From NCBI RefSeq assembly GCF_005887615.1, contig NZ_VANS01000005.1:62001-126000 (forward strand): DNA of 64,000 bases. The letters run 5' to 3'. Below are positions 56,656 through 64,000 of the stretch, piece by piece. The translations under genes and the position numbers were made by a program. This stretch comes from Sulfitobacter sabulilitoris (lineage in GTDB: Bacteria; Pseudomonadota; Alphaproteobacteria; Rhodobacterales; Rhodobacteraceae). Positions within the stretch are counted from its first letter, which is position 1; the number at the start of each line of letters is the position of its first letter. The notes under the pieces were generated by a model that was not told the origin of the DNA, did no database searches, and was given only the letters and a program-made list of their open reading frames with translations.

Positions 56656-56949
56656 ATGACCAAAGGATACTGGATCGCCCATGTCGATGTGCGCGACCCG
56701 CAGGCCTATGACGCCTACCGCGCGGCCAATGCCGCCCCCTTCAAAGCCTACGGCGCGAAATTCCTGGTCCGCGGCGGGGATCACGAAATCCGCGAAGGCC
56801 GCGCGAAACCGCGCACCGTCGTGATCGAATTTCCCAGCTACGCCGAGGCCATCGCCTGCTACGAAAGCCCCGCCTACCAGGCCGCCAAAGCGCTGCGCGA
56901 CCCGGTGTCCGAGGGTGATTTGCTGATCATCGAGGGATACGACCCCTAA
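56656..56949 (+). CDS. DUF1330 protein
   Basis: A 97-residue protein of the ferredoxin-like DUF1330 family (dimeric alpha-beta barrel): GYWIAHVDVRDPQAYDAYRA, KAYGAKFLVRGGDHEIREG, RTVVIEFPSYAEAIACYESP and YQAAKALRDPVSEGDLLIIE. No function is established for the family, though the fold suits small-molecule binding or isomerase/monooxygenase use. GAGGAGAGAG stands upstream. It follows rlmJ by 29 bp, so they may be co-transcribed. Confidence 0.93.
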   Translation: MTKGYWIAHVDVRDPQAYDAYRAANAAPFKAYGAKFLVRGGDHEIREGRAKPRTVVIEFPSYAEAIACYESPAYQAAKALRDPVSEGDLLIIEGYDP

Positions 56950-56971
56950 CGATTCGTGCTACAGTGCCACC

Positions 56972-57622
56972 ATGCGATACGTCTGGGCCCTTTGTCTGGT
57001 ACTGCTGCCGCGCGCCGCGCTGGCCTGCGGCCTGCCGGTGTGCCTGACCGACCCCGACGTGCTGACCTTTGCGCATGTCATCACCTTCGAGGACACCCGG
57101 TCGAGCATGGGTCCCGGCCACCGGATCGACGGGCTGCTGGTGATGGATGGCGCGCAATTCGGCGAGAGGTTCGCGGGCCAGTCACTGGCGCCCACGGGCG
57201 ACCACGATGCCGTCACCGGCGCGCCGCTGCCGCCGCTCGTGCTGATGTCGGGGCCGCCGGGCCAGAACCTGTCGGTGGTGCATATGACCGGCAACAATGT
57301 CCTGAACGGCTATGGCGCGGCCGGGTTTCCCAAGCGTCGCGCCCAGGGCGAAGGCGCGATTTCCGTGCTGTTCGACCGTGACCAGTCCGCGTTGTCGTTT
57401 CAACTGCGCGGCGGTGAGGCCGGACAGGCACAGGTTGTGTTTTTACGTCGCGATGGCAGCCTGATTTCAACGTTGGATTTGACGGACCTGGGCGAACATG
57501 CCATCGGGTTCCTGCGCAGCCAGGGCCAGGCCGATATCGCTGGTTTCGTGCTGACGAACACCGACCCCCAGGGGCTGGCGCTGGACAACCTGCGCTTTGA
57601 CCGCCCCCCGAACCTAAGCTGA
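56972..57622 (+). CDS. Secreted unknown protein (216 aa)
   Basis: The signal peptide (RYVWALCLVLLPRAALA, about 2-18) is followed by a Cys pair CGLPVC and a beta-rich mature region (ITFEDTRSSMGPGHRIDGLL, GDHDAVTGAPLPPLVLMSGP, VVHMTGNNVLNGYGAAGFPK, LDNLRFD). The ending FEDTRSSM...VLTNTDPQGLALDNLRF matches the general plan of PEP-CTERM-like/choice-of-anchor carbohydrate-binding-like sandwiches (ITFED at the start and LDNLRF at the end), but no anchor sequence follows. Function unknown. It lies 22 bp after DUF1330 and 22 bp before a TerB gene. Confidence 0.7.
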   Translation: MRYVWALCLVLLPRAALACGLPVCLTDPDVLTFAHVITFEDTRSSMGPGHRIDGLLVMDGAQFGERFAGQSLAPTGDHDAVTGAPLPPLVLMSGPPGQNLSVVHMTGNNVLNGYGAAGFPKRRAQGEGAISVLFDRDQSALSFQLRGGEAGQAQVVFLRRDGSLISTLDLTDLGEHAIGFLRSQGQADIAGFVLTNTDPQGLALDNLRFDRPPNLS

Positions 57623-57643
57623 GCCGAGAGGGTATTCCGCCCG

Positions 57644-58081
57644 ATGTTCGAACGACTTTTTCCGCGCCGCAAGCCTGATCCCAAGCCTTTGCCGCAACCC
57701 AATGCGCAACTGGCGCTGGGGGCGCTCTTGGTGCGCGTCGCGATGGCCGACCGTGATTACAACGCCACGGAAGTGGGACAGATCGACCGCATCCTGGCCG
57801 CGACCTTCGGGTTGAAGCCGCTGGAGGCGGCCAAGCTGCGCGCCACATGCGAAAAGCTCGAGATGCACGCCCCCGGAACCCCGGAATTCGCCGCGATCCT
57901 GCGTGACGAGGTGCCCTATGCCGACCGCAAGGCGCTGGCCGATGCGATGTGGGCGGTCGCGCTGGCCGACGGGGACCGGGCGGAGCGCGAGGAGATCACC
58001 CTGATGGCGATCGAAACCGAACTTGGCCTGACGGACGAGGACATCGTGACCGCGCGCCGCACCGCCCTGCGTCAGTCATAG
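57644..58081 (+). CDS. TerB-family protein, first paralogue
   Basis: A 145-residue helical protein of the TerB/DjlA-like fold: ALGALLVRVAMADRDYNATE, VGQIDRILAATFGL, RDEVPYADRKALADAMWAVA and LADGDRAEREEITLMAIETE. The paired A-D-x-D/G-x-x-x-x-x-E acidic motifs are the predicted metal-binding sites. The N-terminus is basic and Pro-rich (ERLFPRRKPDPKPLPQPN). TerB proteins are linked to stress and tellurite response, but no terC, terD or terA is here. A close paralogue follows 49 bp downstream. A GAGAGGGT site precedes the ATG at a long spacing. Confidence 0.9.
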   Translation: MFERLFPRRKPDPKPLPQPNAQLALGALLVRVAMADRDYNATEVGQIDRILAATFGLKPLEAAKLRATCEKLEMHAPGTPEFAAILRDEVPYADRKALADAMWAVALADGDRAEREEITLMAIETELGLTDEDIVTARRTALRQS

Positions 58082-58130
58082 CGCAAGGTAACTCTTTGCA
58101 TGTCGCGCGCACCGGATTATATCCTGTGAC

Positions 58131-58571
58131 ATGTTTGCAGATTTCATAAAGCGGCTGACCCAGCCCGACCCCGTACACCTGCCCGATGACGACGCGCGAT
58201 TGGCCCTCACGGCCCTTCTGGTGCGGATCGCGCGGGCCGATCAAAACTACTCGGACACGGAAAAGGAACGCATCGACCAGATCACTGCGAAACGCTACGA
58301 TCTCGGCCCCGGTGCCGTGACCGCCCTGCGCGCCGAGGCCGAACTGCTGGAGGCCGAGGCCCCCGATACCGTGCGTTTCACCCGCGCGATCAAGGACGCG
58401 GTGCCGTATGACGAGCGTCTGCGCGTGGTCGAGGCGCTGTGGAAGGTCGTGCTGGCCGATGGGACCCGCGCCGAGGAGGAAGACGCGGTGGTGCGCATGG
58501 CGACCAAGTTCCTGGGTGTCAGCGATCCGGATTCGGCGATGGCGCGGCAAAAGGTCGAAGGCACGGCGTGA
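58131..58571 (+). CDS. TerB-family protein, second paralogue
   Basis: A 146-residue paralogue of the gene before it, with the same plan: basic start (ADFIKRLTQPDP), LALTALLVRIARADQNYSDT, ERIDQITAKRYDLGPG, KDAVPYDERLRVVEALWKVV and LADGTRAEEEDAVVRMATKF. It keeps both acidic A-D-x-N/D-x-x-x-x-x-E and A-D-G-x-x-x-x-x-E motifs. No good ribosome site precedes its ATG; TTATAT lies close upstream, so the transcript may start near the ATG. The stop overlaps the PhnD-like start (GTGA). Confidence 0.9.
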   Translation: MFADFIKRLTQPDPVHLPDDDARLALTALLVRIARADQNYSDTEKERIDQITAKRYDLGPGAVTALRAEAELLEAEAPDTVRFTRAIKDAVPYDERLRVVEALWKVVLADGTRAEEEDAVVRMATKFLGVSDPDSAMARQKVEGTA

Positions 58572-59323
58572 CCGCCAGCCTTCCGATGTACGACCGGTCC
58601 ACGACCCGAGGGCCCAACGACCGTCTGTGGGCGCGCGTGCGCGAGGCGCTTGGACGGGGCCCGCAGACCCTGGATCGCGACACCGATCCGCGCCTGACCT
58701 GGCACGATCCGGATCTGGTGCTGTCGCAGACCTGCGGCCTGCCTTTCCGGCTGGGGCTGAACACGCATGTGACCTATGTCGGTACGCCCGACTACGGGGT
58801 GCGCGGCTGCCTGCCGGGATATTACAAGTCCTACATCGTGGTGCGCCGCGACGACCCGCGCAAGCGTCTGTCCGAGTTCGAGAAATGCACCCTCGCGCGC
58901 AATTCGGTGCTGTCGCAGTCGGGCTGGGCCGCGATGGAGAATCACCTGGTCGACACGGGCGCGGGCTTCAGCTTTGAGCGGCACGCCATCGACACCGGAT
59001 CGCACGAGGCGTCTGTCGCCGCTGTATCCGCCGGAGAAGCCGACATCGCCGCGATCGACGCCGTGACCTGGACGCTGCTGAAACGGGAGGGCGCCACCGG
59101 GGCATGCCGGGTGCTGAGCTTTACGAGGCCGACGCCGGGTCTGCCGCTGATCACCGCCGGCGGGACAGACCCCGCGCCGATGCGCAGCGCCCTTGACCGC
59201 GCCATAAAGTCCCTGTCGGGACGCGACCGCGCGCAGCTCTTGCTCAAGGGAGTGGTGCAGATACCGGTTGAGGCGTACCTCGACGAACCGGTGCCGCCCT
59301 CGTGCAAAGTGGTGACAGACTAG
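58568..59323 (+). CDS. PhnD/SsuA-like substrate-binding-fold protein without signal peptide
   Basis: A 251-residue protein of the periplasmic binding type II fold: LVLSQTCGLPFRLGLNTHVT, GTPDYGVRGCLPGYYKSYIV, RNSVLSQSGWAAMENHL, GSHEASVAAVSAGEADIAAI and FTRPTPGLPLITAGG match PhnD-like phosphonate/phosphite binding proteins. No signal peptide is present (MTASLPMYDRSTTRG), so it is predicted to be cytoplasmic. GTG start at 58568 overlaps the TerB stop by four bases, a translational coupling; an ATG at 58586 is possible. No ABC permease or ATPase for it follows, the next operon being of the polar amino acid type. Confidence 0.85.
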   Translation: MTASLPMYDRSTTRGPNDRLWARVREALGRGPQTLDRDTDPRLTWHDPDLVLSQTCGLPFRLGLNTHVTYVGTPDYGVRGCLPGYYKSYIVVRRDDPRKRLSEFEKCTLARNSVLSQSGWAAMENHLVDTGAGFSFERHAIDTGSHEASVAAVSAGEADIAAIDAVTWTLLKREGATGACRVLSFTRPTPGLPLITAGGTDPAPMRSALDRAIKSLSGRDRAQLLLKGVVQIPVEAYLDEPVPPSCKVVTD

Positions 59324-59443
59324 GCGCGGGGGCCCTTCCCCTTCGTCAACTTGGACGGATTAATTGCGTTCTTTTGTTTTGCAAGTTGCGAATCCAAGCA
59401 TTTTCGCCCCTTATGGCCCCTTGAAACAGCTCAAGATGTGCCA

Positions 59444-60223
59444 GTGACCTCTGAAACGCCCGTCATCGAAATTCGCCATCTGCACAAAGCCTACGGGTCT
59501 TTGGAAGTCCTCAAGGGTGTGGATATCTCTGCTCCGAAGGGGCATGTGGTGTCATTGATCGGGTCATCTGGGTCGGGAAAGTCCACGCTTTTGCGCTGCT
59601 GCAACCTGCTCGAGGACAGCCAGCAGGGCGAGGTTCTCTTCAAGGGCGAGCCGGTCCGGTGGAAGGGCGAAGGTCACAATCGCCGCCCCGCCGACGCGGG
59701 CCAGGTGCTGCGCATTCGAACGAACCTCAGCATGGTGTTCCAGCAGTTCAATCTGTGGTCGCACATGACCATTCTGCAAAACGTGATGGAAGCGCCGCTG
59801 ACCGTGCTGAGACGCGACCGCGCCGAGGTCGAGGCCGCTGCGCGCGCATATCTCGACAAGGTGGGGATCGGCGACAAATGCGACGCGTATCCGGCGCAAC
59901 TGTCCGGTGGCCAGCAACAGCGCGCCGCGATCGCGCGCGCGCTGTGCATGGAGCCAGAGGCGCTGTTGTTCGACGAGCCGACGTCGGCGCTCGATCCCGA
60001 GTTGGAGCAGGAAGTCGTCAAGGTCATCAAGGATCTGGCGAGCGAGGGGCGCACGATGATGATCGTGACCCACGATATGAAACTGGCCGCCGATGTGTCG
60101 GACCACGTGGTGTTCCTGCATCAGGGCCTGATCGAAGAACAAGGGGCGCCCGACACGCTGTTCGGCGCACCCAAATCAGAACGACTGCGCGGGTTTTTGT
60201 CCGCAACGACCCACGCTGCGTAA
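59444..60223 (+). CDS. Polar amino acid ABC transporter ATP-binding protein
   Basis: A 259-residue ATPase of the HisP/GlnQ group: Walker A GSSGSGKSTLLRCCNLLE, QQFNLWSHMTILQNVM (Q-loop), signature LSGGQQQRAAIARALCMEP, Walker B LLFDEPTSALDPEL and H-loop VTHDM. It drives uptake through the two permeases encoded downstream. Start is uncertain: GTG at 59444 (VTSETPVIEIRHL) is chosen; a GTG at 59438 and a start at 59351 are in frame. The 120-bp leader before it is T-rich. It is the first gene of a four-gene transporter operon. Confidence 0.94.
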   Translation: MTSETPVIEIRHLHKAYGSLEVLKGVDISAPKGHVVSLIGSSGSGKSTLLRCCNLLEDSQQGEVLFKGEPVRWKGEGHNRRPADAGQVLRIRTNLSMVFQQFNLWSHMTILQNVMEAPLTVLRRDRAEVEAAARAYLDKVGIGDKCDAYPAQLSGGQQQRAAIARALCMEPEALLFDEPTSALDPELEQEVVKVIKDLASEGRTMMIVTHDMKLAADVSDHVVFLHQGLIEEQGAPDTLFGAPKSERLRGFLSATTHAA

Positions 60224-60252
60224 CCCAAAGATAAGAAACGGGAGTATCTACC

Positions 60253-60987
60253 ATGAAAAAGACGATTCTGACGACGACCGCACTGGCGCTGAGCGCCGGT
60301 ATGGTGTTCGCCGCCGCCCACGAGAAAACCATCCGCATGGGCACCGAGGGCGCCTACCCCCCCTACAACTTCATCAATGACGCGGGCGAGGTCGATGGCT
60401 TCGAGCGCGAGTTGGGCGACGAGCTTTGCCTGCGCGCCGAACTGACCTGCGAATGGGTCAAGAACGACTGGGACAGCATCATCCCCAACCTTGTGTCGTC
60501 GAACTACGACACGATCATGGCGGGCATGAGCATCACGGACGAGCGGGACGAAGTGATTGATTTCACGCAAGACTACTTCCCGCCCACTGCCTCTGCCTAT
60601 GTCGCGGCCTCTGACGCGGTCGATGTGACCTCGGGCGTGATCGCGGCCCAGACGGCCACCATCCAGGCCGGCTATGTCGCGGAAAGCGGCGCCACGCTGG
60701 TCGAATTCGCCACACCCGAGGAAACCGTGGCGGCTGTGCGCAACGGCGAAGCGGACGCCGTCTTTGCCGACAAGGACTATCTTGCACCGCTGGTCGAGGA
60801 TTCCGCCGGCGAGCTGATGTTCGTGGGCGAGGAAGTCGCGCTTGGCGGCGGTATCGGCATGGGCCTGCGCGAAAGCGACACGGATCTGAAGGAAAAGTTC
60901 GACGCGGCCATCACCTCGATGAAGGAAGACGGCACGCTGAACGCGATGCTGAAGAAGTGGTTCGGCGAAGAAACCGCCACCTACTGA
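60253..60987 (+). CDS. Amino acid ABC transporter substrate-binding protein (HisJ/ArgT-like)
   Basis: A 244-residue periplasmic protein with a signal peptide (KKTILTTTALALSAGMVFAA, 2-21). The mature domain has the family 3 pattern IRMGTEGAYPPYNFINDAGE, GFERELGDELCLRAELTCEW, WDSIIPNLVSSNYDTIMAGM, ITDERDEVIDFTQDY and ADAVFADKDYL. The first blocks bind the alpha-amino and carboxyl groups. Specificity looks like basic or polar amino acids (Lys/Arg/Orn/His), not firmly set. GGGAG precedes the ATG. The gene follows the ATPase by 29 bp. Confidence 0.94.
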   Translation: MKKTILTTTALALSAGMVFAAAHEKTIRMGTEGAYPPYNFINDAGEVDGFERELGDELCLRAELTCEWVKNDWDSIIPNLVSSNYDTIMAGMSITDERDEVIDFTQDYFPPTASAYVAASDAVDVTSGVIAAQTATIQAGYVAESGATLVEFATPEETVAAVRNGEADAVFADKDYLAPLVEDSAGELMFVGEEVALGGGIGMGLRESDTDLKEKFDAAITSMKEDGTLNAMLKKWFGEETATY

Positions 60988-61083
60988 CCCCCTTAGGCCG
61001 GGCGCGCGATCCATCGGGTGCGCGCCCGGCCCCCCTGCACCGGCGCGGGGTCGCCAGCCTCGGTGCCTTAGTCCCGGACAGTC

Positions 61084-61971
61084 ATGTTTTCCTTTTGCAC
61101 CGATCCCGACACATTGGACCAAGCGCGCTGGCTGGCGTGCTACCTGACCACGGGTGTGCACCTGTCGTTCTACATGTCGTTTCTCAAGGTGCTTGGCCTG
61201 CTTGCCGTGACCGCGCCCGTCGCCCTTGGGTTCGGGTTCGCGGGGGCGATGGTGGCACGGTCGCATATCGCGCCCCTGTCGTGGATCGGCAAGGCCTATA
61301 TCGCGATCGTGCGCGGCGTGCCGGACATCGCGTTTTTCCTGTTCTTCGTGATCGCGTTGGATCAGGCATTCGAATACCTGCGCCACAAGGCGCTGTGCCC
61401 CGACTGGGACGAACCCATCCGGCAGGGCCGCGATTTCGTCGTCTGCCAGGCCGCCAAGCTGCCACTGGGCAACGCGCCGCAGTGGGTGCATGAAACCTAC
61501 GGGTTTTCGCTGGCCGTCATCACCTTTTCCATCGTCTTCGGGGCATTTGCCGCCAATGTCATTTTCGGCGCGATGCGCGCCGTGCCGCGCGCGCAGCTTG
61601 AAACCGCCGAAGCCTACGGCATGACCCGCCGGCAGACGTTCTGGCGGGTGCTGGTGCCGCAGATGTGGGTCTTTGCGCTGCCGGGCCTGTCGAACCTGTG
61701 GATGGTGCTGATCAAGGCGACGCCGCTGTTGTTCCTCTTGGGCGTCGAAGACATCGTCTATTGGGCGCGCGAACTTGGCGGGACCAAAACACCGCGCTTT
61801 ACCGACTATCCGCATGGCGACTGGCGGATGTGGTATTTCCTGGGGTTGCTGGTGTTCTACCTCGCCTTTACCCGCGTGTCGGAAATCGCGCTGGATCGGA
61901 TCATGGGGCGTCTGACGTTGGGTCAGGCCACCGCCGGTGGCGAAGCACAGCGCAAGGGGGCCGTGGCATGA
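61084..61971 (+). CDS. Amino acid ABC transporter permease 1 (HisQ/ArtQ-like)
   Basis: A 295-residue membrane subunit with five helices and the EAA cytoplasmic loop LETAEAYGMTRRQTFWRVLV, which docks on the ATPase. It is longer than typical HisQ (228) because of a hydrophilic stretch of about 40 residues (YLRHKALCPDWDEPIRQGRD, containing two cysteines) after the second or third helix, and a short C-terminal tail. Its stop overlaps the second permease start (ATGA). Predicted partner of permease 2. Confidence 0.93.
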   Translation: MFSFCTDPDTLDQARWLACYLTTGVHLSFYMSFLKVLGLLAVTAPVALGFGFAGAMVARSHIAPLSWIGKAYIAIVRGVPDIAFFLFFVIALDQAFEYLRHKALCPDWDEPIRQGRDFVVCQAAKLPLGNAPQWVHETYGFSLAVITFSIVFGAFAANVIFGAMRAVPRAQLETAEAYGMTRRQTFWRVLVPQMWVFALPGLSNLWMVLIKATPLLFLLGVEDIVYWARELGGTKTPRFTDYPHGDWRMWYFLGLLVFYLAFTRVSEIALDRIMGRLTLGQATAGGEAQRKGAVA

Positions 61972-62774
61972 GCTGCCTCCAGACCATCCAGGACTACGGC
62001 CTGCGCTCCATCGGGATCGGCGAACGCCTGTTGCCGCGCAGCGACTTCACCCTGTGCGAGCAGGTCACGCTGATCGGCTCCGGCATGATCTGGAACGTCT
62101 ATTTCGGGGTCGTGGCGCTGATCAGCGGGTTCTTTCTGGCCACCGCGCTGGCCGTGGCCAAGGCGTCGCCCCGCAAGGGCCTGCGCAAGCCCGCCGAATG
62201 GTTCATCTTCATCTTCCGCGGCTCGCCGCTCTTCATCCAGTTCTTCTTCGGCTACTTCCTGTTCCTCAGCCTCAAGAGCCAATACCCGATGTTCGACGCC
62301 TTCACCTCGGCCTGGCTGGGGGCGCTGATCGTGCTCTACCTCAACACCGCCGCCTATTCGGCCGAGATCTTCTACGGGGCGCTGCTGTCGATCCCCAAGG
62401 GCGATACGGAGGCCGCCGATGCCTACGGCATGACCGGCTGGCCCCGGTTCAAGCGCGTGATCTGGCCCACGATGCTGCGTCTTGCGTGGCCCGCCTACAC
62501 GAACGAGGCGATCTTTCTGTTCCACGCCACGGCGCTGGTGTTCTTTTCGGGCTTTCCCGCATGGCAGCAAAAGGGCGACGCGCTCTATTACGCCAGCTAC
62601 TTTGCCGACAAGACCTTCAACCCCTTTGTGCCCTACCCCATATTGGCGGGATATTTCATTCTGCTGACGCTTTGCGTGGTGGGCGTGTTCGGGGCGGTCA
62701 ATGCCCGGCTGAACCGTCATCTGCCACAGGAGGCGCGGCGCAAAATGCGCTTGCGTCCCAATCTGATACGGTAG
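61968..62774 (+). CDS. Amino acid ABC transporter permease 2 (HisM-like)
   Basis: A 268-residue permease with the EAA loop DTEAADAYGMTGWPRFKRVI and helices such as NVYFGVVALISGFFLATALA and PLFIQFFFGYFLFLSL. The FIFRGSPLFIQFFF segment is typical of the HisMQ/ArtM family. Start ATG at 61968 is four bases inside the end of permease 1. The two permeases presumably form the heterodimeric channel for the polar amino acid taken up by this system. Confidence 0.94.
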   Translation: MSCLQTIQDYGLRSIGIGERLLPRSDFTLCEQVTLIGSGMIWNVYFGVVALISGFFLATALAVAKASPRKGLRKPAEWFIFIFRGSPLFIQFFFGYFLFLSLKSQYPMFDAFTSAWLGALIVLYLNTAAYSAEIFYGALLSIPKGDTEAADAYGMTGWPRFKRVIWPTMLRLAWPAYTNEAIFLFHATALVFFSGFPAWQQKGDALYYASYFADKTFNPFVPYPILAGYFILLTLCVVGVFGAVNARLNRHLPQEARRKMRLRPNLIR

Positions 62775-62869: not shown

Positions 62870-62946
62870 GGTAATGGACCAAGGGCATGGACCACGCGCC
62901 GCCGGATGCACGGCCGCCTGTCACCAGACCCCAACTAGGTGAAGTG

Positions 62947-64000
62947 ATGAAAAACTGGCTTCGTAAGCACCCGCAAGTCCGCACGATCCGTGTGGCCGCC
63001 GCCGATCTCAACGGTCAGGCGCGGGGCAAGCGCATTCCCACCCGGTTCGCCGACAAGGTCGTGGAGGATGGCACCCGGTTTCCGATGTCGGTGCTGAACC
63101 TCGACATCTGGGGCGAAGATATCGACGACAGCCCGCTGGTGTTCGAAAGCGGCGACCGCGACGGCGTTCTGCGCCCGACCGAGCGCGGCTTCATGCCGAT
63201 GCCGTGGCTGGATGCGCCCACGGCCCTGCTGCCGATCTGGATGTTCCACGAGGATGGCCGCCCCTACGAGGGCGACCCGCGCCATGCCCTGCGCGCCGTG
63301 CTGGACCGGTTCAAGGCACGCGGCCTGACACCCGTCTGCGCGGTCGAGCTTGAATTTTTCCTGATCGACGATTCGGGCCGCAGCCTGCAGGCGCCGCTCA
63401 GCCCGCGGTCGGGCAAACGCCGCAAGGCCGCCGAAACGATGTCGATCCGGGCGCTGGACCAGTTCGATATCTTCTTTACCGACCTCTACGACGCCTGCGA
63501 GGAAATGGACATTCCCGCCGACACCGCGATTTCCGAGGCGGGCCTGGGCCAGTTCGAGATCAACCTGATGCATTCCGACGATGCGCTGCGCGCCGCCGAC
63601 GATGCCTGGCTGTTCAAGATGCTGGTCAAGGGACTGGCGCGCAAGCACGGCTTCGCGGCAAGCTTCATGGCCAAACCCTACGAGGATTACGCCGGCTCCG
63701 GGCTGCATGTGCATTTCTCGGTGCTGGACGCCGACGGCAACAACGTCTTCGACAACGGCGGGCCGGAGGGCACGGAAATCTTGCGGCACGCGGTCGCCGG
63801 GTGCCTGAACGCGATGGAAGGCTCGGCGCTGGTCTTTGCCCCCCATGCCAACAGCTTTGACCGGATGGTGCCGGGCGCACATGCGCCGACGGGCATTTCC
63901 TGGGCCTATGAAAACCGCACATCGGCCATCCGCATTCCCTCGGGATCGCCAGCCGCGCGGCGGATCGAACACCGGGTGTCGGGCGGCGACGTGAACCCCT
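62947..64000 (+). CDS. Glutamine synthetase-family protein, PuuA-like (right edge truncated)
   Basis: The first 351 codons of a glutamine synthetase-fold ligase. VRTIRVAAADLNGQARGKRI (beta-grasp), CAVELEFFLIDD (metal Glu), EAGLGQFEINLMHSDDALRA, GFAASFMAKPYEDYAGSGLH, HVHFSVLD, ISWAYENRTSAIRIPSG and RRIEHRVSGGDVNP are characteristic. The N-terminus and GSGLHVHFS variant look like gamma-glutamylputrescine synthetase or other GlnA-like enzymes rather than housekeeping GlnA. Adjacent polar amino acid ABC genes suggest catabolism of an imported amine or amino acid through a gamma-glutamyl intermediate. The C-terminus lies beyond the window. Confidence 0.9.
   Translation, partial: MKNWLRKHPQVRTIRVAAADLNGQARGKRIPTRFADKVVEDGTRFPMSVLNLDIWGEDIDDSPLVFESGDRDGVLRPTERGFMPMPWLDAPTALLPIWMFHEDGRPYEGDPRHALRAVLDRFKARGLTPVCAVELEFFLIDDSGRSLQAPLSPRSGKRRKAAETMSIRALDQFDIFFTDLYDACEEMDIPADTAISEAGLGQFEINLMHSDDALRAADDAWLFKMLVKGLARKHGFAASFMAKPYEDYAGSGLHVHFSVLDADGNNVFDNGGPEGTEILRHAVAGCLNAMEGSALVFAPHANSFDRMVPGAHAPTGISWAYENRTSAIRIPSGSPAARRIEHRVSGGDVNP

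Follow-up and report, generated by a model that had tools for sequence, protein, structure and literature searches.

TerB proteins are widespread, yet their function is poorly understood. Two of them, TerB1 and TerB2, lie beside a signal-less PF12974-family protein in the window, by which we mean the whole stretch of 64,000 nucleotides that was analysed. The closest solved fold to the PF12974 protein is that of AioX, ArxX and ArrX (6ESK, 6EU7, 6ESV; PMC5908839). The AioX pocket consists of Tyr88, Cys106, Tyr131, Ser161, Ser163, His192 and Asp210, with arsenite attached to Cys106; E. coli PhnD has Gly65 and Asn175 at the positions of Cys106 and Asp210, and Glu177 at the position of AioX Tyr212 (PMC5908839). 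The same study gives an AioX affinity for arsenite of 177 nM, with phosphate binding undetectable and its Kd estimated above 2 mM, and its authors state that selectivity is not set by the pocket alone (PMC5908839).

We determined the layout of the locus and the gene calls around it (Table 1). A sequence-only reading had placed TerB1, TerB2 and the signal-less protein in one run, with a four-base overlap between TerB2 and the third gene; the coordinates, the PF05099 and PF12974 scores and the hydropathy all agree with this run, and the overlap is the GTGA listed in Table 1. TerB1 and TerB2 are ~44% identical, and residues D37, E44, D110 and E117 are invariant in 46/46 aligned TerB1/TerB2 sequences. 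The TerB2 model (pLDDT 87.5) matched 2h5n (Z 12.5, rmsd 2.9, 118 residues aligned) and the tellurite resistance protein 2ou3 (Z 12.2, rmsd 4.5, 125 residues aligned), both just below the tool's safe level in a comparison of helical folds; the next row stood at Z 6.3. The genome has four TerB-domain places in all, i.e. two besides TerB1 and TerB2, and PF12974 matches more weakly at two other places, of which one falls below the family cut-off. The best PF05099 score (122.5 bits) belongs to another TerB domain of this genome (G000:C15:187485-187826, in a 243-residue frame); places like it are present in many of the sampled genomes, and we presume that the frame may encode a DjlA-like co-chaperone. 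Searches of the genome gave 0 matches for TerD (PF02342), a model that matched only 2/14 controls, and 0 for the C-P lyase partner PhnJ (PF06007), for which the E. coli control matched, in agreement with the earlier statement that the run has no ter or phn partners.

Table 1. Coordinates of the run, its pocket codons and the genes that follow, numbered from the first letter of the window.
Feature	Position	Strand	Description
TerB1	57644..58081	+	145 aa; PF05099 94 bits (cut-off 24.4); less conserved member of the run
TerB2	58131..58571	+	146 aa; PF05099 118.6 bits (cut-off 24.4); constant partner of the PF12974 gene
GTGA overlap	58568..58571	+	TerB2 stop and PF12974 gene start; basis: sequence
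Signal-less PF12974 protein, putative AioX-like cytoplasmic binding protein	58568..59323	+	251 aa; PF12974 61.8 bits (cut-off 27)
Cys56 codon	58733..58735	+	AioX Cys106 (arsenite ligand); Cys in 139/139 relatives
Tyr86 codon	58823..58825	+	AioX Tyr131; Tyr in 137/139
Ser116, Gln117, Ser118 codons	58913..58921	+	Ser116 and Ser118 = AioX Ser161 and Ser163; both in 139/139
His146 codon	59003..59005	+	AioX His192; His in 138/139
Asp164 codon	59057..59059	+	AioX Asp210; Asp in 139/139
Amino-acid type ABC transporter (context, outside the unit)	59351..62774	+	ATPase, SBP_bac_3, two permeases
Exported SBP_bac_3 binding protein of the ABC transporter	60253-60987	+	
ABC permeases	61084-61971 and 61965-62774	+	
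First of two glutamine-synthetase-like genes (context)	62887..63999	+	

5' of TerB1 lie genes for RlmJ, for a DUF1330 protein and for a 216-residue product (56972-57622) that has a signal-like start. This last protein matches nothing in Pfam or NCBIfam, and is conserved 5' of TerB1 in Roseobacter loci. The ABC transporter, which is of the amino-acid type and has an exported binding protein of its own, lies ~120 bases 3' of the PF12974 gene, and beyond the window the first glutamine-synthetase-like gene is followed by an amidotransferase, a second glutamine-synthetase-like gene and an FAD oxidoreductase. The NCBIfam gamma-glutamylputrescine synthetase model matches this downstream operon far under its cut-off; we take the operon to resemble polyamine gamma-glutamylation. 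A promoter and terminator scan of 56900-60300 returned 0 of each.

We next compared the fold of the PF12974 protein with solved structures. The best Foldseek match of its AlphaFold2 model (pLDDT 96.3) was AioX 8ed5 (E 1.5e-15, TM 0.78), and AioX structures filled ranks 1-4 (query TM 0.75-0.78, 25-26% identity), followed by ArrX and PtxB, with PhnD lower. VIA gave AioX 6eu7_D at Z 24.7 (239 residues aligned, rmsd 3.0), PtxB 5lq1_A at Z 23.1 (240 aligned, rmsd 2.7) and E. coli PhnD 3p7i at Z 20.9 (240 aligned, rmsd 3.2), and a PDB profile search returned AioX at 8e-18, ArrX at 2e-12 and PhnD at 3e-6. When the pocket was mapped by alignment to the named NT-26 AioX (L230), 6/7 AioX pocket residues were found to be kept (Table 1), the exception being Tyr88, which has no counterpart; Asp38 stands in that column and is variable among relatives. 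The Cys and Asp are also kept in five compared AioX/AioX-like proteins, taken as controls from the same profile search as the relatives, and the AioX/AioX-like controls L221 and L224 have kinase-like, regulator-like and molybdoenzyme-like genes nearby, as read by eye. Gly and Ala stand at the Cys56 and Asp164 columns of three compared PhnD transport proteins; in a fourth (L218), these columns hold a gap and Ser. A match of Pro193 to AioX Pro240 was dropped, the residue being Leu192 when aligned to the named AioX.

In a small tree, the cytoplasmic family formed its own clade (SH-aLRT 96) and was not nested in AioX; AioX and PhnD meet there on long branches, which leaves their branching order relative to the cytoplasmic family unsettled. 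The PF12974 protein is thus AioX-like in its pocket without being an AioX. A second group of signal-less PF12974 proteins (L200-L206, L208 and L213), recognisable by the motifs 'IANARMYSVAP' and 'MCGWPF', keeps the Cys and Asp and has Pro or Ala in place of the pocket His. The phosphonate-binding type to which the third protein had been assigned does not hold: the NCBIfam PhnD model (TIGR03431) gave 24.9 bits against a cut-off of 261.1, TIGR01098 gave 33.9 bits against 112.05, and pocket and fold are nearest AioX. We rejected a role in phosphonate transport on the PhnD model scores, the absence of PhnJ and the pocket residues.

The PF12974 protein lacks a signal sequence: in the model, the fold's first strand already starts at residue 2, and N-terminal hydropathy is -0.22, whereas the exported binding protein encoded at 60253 scores 2.01. 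We also rejected the possibility that translation starts further upstream and includes a signal, since the frame extended to 58439 lacks hydrophobic character and runs over TerB2. None of the relatives whose starts were read has a signal sequence, nor did the family yield any exported form, in keeping with the cytoplasmic location first proposed. The first strand begins right after the start codon in 115/139 relatives, a count partly built in by taking starts from match ends.

We then asked how constant the arrangement is among named loci, which were the best 80 of 585 confirmed relatives from a family profile search and are skewed to close kin. TerB2 lies directly 5' of the PF12974 gene in 70/80 of these loci, and the exact four-base overlap is present in 64 of the 70 within this best-80 set, as it is in 9 of 11 linked loci from the first genome set; these frequencies make the arrangement more than chance. 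L069, L095 and L105 are included in the 80-locus count and were left out of the alignment and tree (the matches of L069 and L095 begin at residue 3). The conserved triplet that had been proposed stands as far as TerB2 and the PF12974 gene are concerned and fails for TerB1, a second TerB being found 5' of TerB2 in only 38 of the 70 TerB2-linked loci of the best 80. TerB1 is a loose member of the run; the unit is TerB2 plus the PF12974 protein.

We also surveyed a family sample of 198 genomes, of which 135 carry 138 PF12974-family hits. For at least 100 of the 138 hits, the TerB2 matches listed include one on the same strand no more than 1 kb away, and 14 further hits adjoin TerB on reading (12 in L127-L153, plus L034 and G022), so that TerB stands beside 114/138 hits in total. 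Three of the 138 are cut by contig ends, and at 21/138 the TerB profile search found no TerB adjoining. Separation of the genes in relatives, which had been named as the sign against a joint unit, is thus confined to a minority, and the pair is kept across genera. By contrast, at least 45 genomes with TerB2, among the matches listed, have no PF12974-family hit. Seven of these were read: six (L043 and L160-L164) keep TerB2 adjoining the same transporter, and the seventh (L165) has two TerB genes and no transporter. The PF12974 protein usually has a TerB2 neighbour, whereas TerB2 does without the PF12974 protein in many genomes; the 21 hits and these 45 genomes speak against an obligate partnership. 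Across 289 genomes of the host's class, 44 carry a match (56 matches, 30 with loci), and among 29 class-level loci read TerB adjoins in one only, whose genome belongs to the same family. A tree that took in 14 of these 29 loci required 5 changes of the TerB-linkage label, a number as low as which was reached in 0/500 shuffles, and the starred branches force only 1; by this quick tree method, the pairing is compatible with one origin. We conclude that TerB2 and the PF12974 gene form an old unit, conserved in the host's bacterial family. Overall, the sequence-only interpretation is partly supported.

Conservation of this kind could reflect descent only, with the overlap saving space and TerB2 and the PF12974 protein acting separately. 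Such a history would fit a TerB2 locus that occurs both with and without the PF12974 protein (as in L043 and L160-L164), and a possible single origin of the pairing would mean that many of the loci are not independent events. It would also fit the result of a mirror-tree comparison of 49 loci, in which TerB2 and PF12974 distances were not coupled more closely than shared ancestry predicts (partial r 0.11). However, the four-base overlap persists down to about 45% identity, the pair outlasts loss of the transporter (L093, L109 and L129), and members of other clades are likewise tight against one partner (L070 and L085), and we regard separate action of the two proteins as unlikely.

An alternative that we judge no more probable is that the PF12974 protein binds a phosphorylated or amine pathway metabolite and, with TerB2, tunes the downstream amino-acid-type uptake and gamma-glutamylation operon. 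An ABC ATPase does follow within 800 bases in 67 of the 70 TerB2-linked loci of the best 80, succeeded by the glutamine-synthetase-like, amidotransferase, glutamine-synthetase-like and FAD oxidoreductase genes, and the kept Ser-x-Ser and His are holders of phosphorus-bound oxygens in PtxB and PhnD. Nonetheless, the pair is set apart from the transporter by a median gap of 127 bases in the named loci, it is kept in L093, L109 and L129, as also in L034, where the transporter ATPase is missing, and TerB2 with the transporter but without the PF12974 protein is common. Moreover, no such operon is present in the other clades.

In those clades, the PF12974 family adjoins a range of other partners. 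A TPR protein stands beside the TerB-less members L073, L094, L097, L103, L110 and L144. In L070 and L085 the neighbours are a dCache/PAS histidine kinase and a LuxR-type response regulator; the regulator runs into the PF12974 gene, and the kinase-regulator pair occupies the place of TerB2, an arrangement like that of aioXSR. Fatty-acid desaturases adjoin the members in L038-L041, L140, L147, L149, L150, L152 and L156, and other recurrent metabolic neighbours are MttB, DAO and UGSC; a Rieske oxygenase also occurs. This spread fits a sensing part with varied outputs better than a subunit of a single pathway, although an enzyme could fit too. Desaturase, MttB, DAO and UGSC as recurrent neighbours point to no single ligand.

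Several individual loci merit mention. On a Ruegeria conchae plasmid (L196:1776-7462), the family member is divergent from genes for ACR3, ArsJ, an ArsJ-associated GAPDH and an HTH regulator, and is flanked on the opposite side by a DUF1045 gene; arsenic genes were sought at all loci gathered and found only here. At L089:8001-10770, the family member is followed by a gene resembling HNOB heme NO-binding proteins, as read by eye, and a kinase-like gene. L110 is a MAG labelled Acidimicrobiaceae (Actinomycetota), and its TPR-PF12974 pair, with 46% identity to the window protein, represents either transfer or mis-binning.

MqnA and Thi5 are enzymes with a binding-protein fold. That the PF12974 protein is likewise an enzyme, with Cys56, His146 and Asp164 catalytic and TerB2 accessory, is the least probable of the alternatives, even though a Cys, His and Asp that are (nearly) invariant lie within one cleft, the protein remains in the cytoplasm and several clades adjoin a fatty-acid desaturase, MttB, DAO or Rieske oxygenase, for the same residues bind ligand in AioX (PMC5908839) and a related signal-less group is without the His; no enzyme was noticed among the Foldseek and VIA matches listed, which by itself excludes nothing.

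The explanation that we favour, tentatively and at somewhat less than even chances, is that the PF12974 protein works in the cytoplasm much as AioX does, sensing a small oxyanion or a ligand that bears one, and acts via a partner, here TerB2. It starts from what the computation gives directly: the absence of a signal, the fold and invariant pocket of the protein, and the conservation of both pairing and overlap. The ligand would be bound between the two lobes through the pocket of Cys56, Tyr86, Ser116, Ser118, His146 and Asp164, causing the protein to close; a thiol-reactive ligand such as arsenite would fit the Cys. A partner from the same operon would then read the closed state; in the window this would be TerB2, made in step by coupled translation and presumably in contact with the sensor. 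In other clades, the readout may fall to the TPR protein, to the histidine kinase and response regulator, or to a desaturase module. The outcome would be a stress or metabolic response, which here might extend to the downstream amine-uptake operon. Since the affinity of AioX for arsenite is 177 nM and its phosphate binding is undetectable, such a pocket could work amid cytoplasmic phosphate. Against a sensor stand the missing Tyr88, the separate clade, the AioX authors' point on selectivity, the single arsenic neighbourhood, the lack of TerB2-specific coupling in the mirror-tree comparison, the frequency with which TerB2 is found without the PF12974 protein, and the metabolic neighbours that point to no single ligand.

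A broader form of the sensor explanation, which we consider rather doubtful, is that a widespread cytoplasmic family with the AioX pocket consists of exchangeable sensors that came, by operon exchange, under TerB2, TPR, kinase-regulator and desaturase outputs. On this broader view, cells would own an intracellular equivalent of the periplasmic sensors of arsenic oxyanions, and TerB would gain its first defined signal input. The PF12974 protein, whose pocket is legible and which is co-made with TerB2 in a family common in the sea, offers a handle on TerB function by way of the ligand. The name that relatives carry in the records, 'PhnD/SsuA/transferrin family substrate-binding protein', points to uptake, which the evidence contradicts. 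Among literature titles, in a search that largely covered papers outside subscription, we found none that links TerB to a cytoplasmic protein of AioX-like or PhnD-like type.

Compared with the known systems, the PF12974 protein departs from AioX, ArxX and ArrX, which are periplasmic and carry a signal, in having no export signal; unlike that of AioX, its gene in the window has no kinase alongside and lies away from arsenic oxidase genes. It has its fold in common with PhnD, PtxB and HtxB, which serve ABC transporters of phosphonate, phosphite and hypophosphite, and keeps the Ser-x-Ser, His and Tyr by which these proteins hold P-oxygens (PMC5700983). PhnD Glu177, which holds the amine of 2-aminoethylphosphonate, is not kept, the window protein having Val166. 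PhnD, PtxB and HtxB are periplasmic, whereas the PF12974 protein is cytoplasmic and without phn genes. TerB1 and TerB2 are like the described TerB family (PF05099, COG3793, e.g. 2OU3) in domain and conserved acids, and probably in helical fold. By contrast with the ter tellurite-resistance system, TerD is absent from this genome and TerB is paired with a binding protein.
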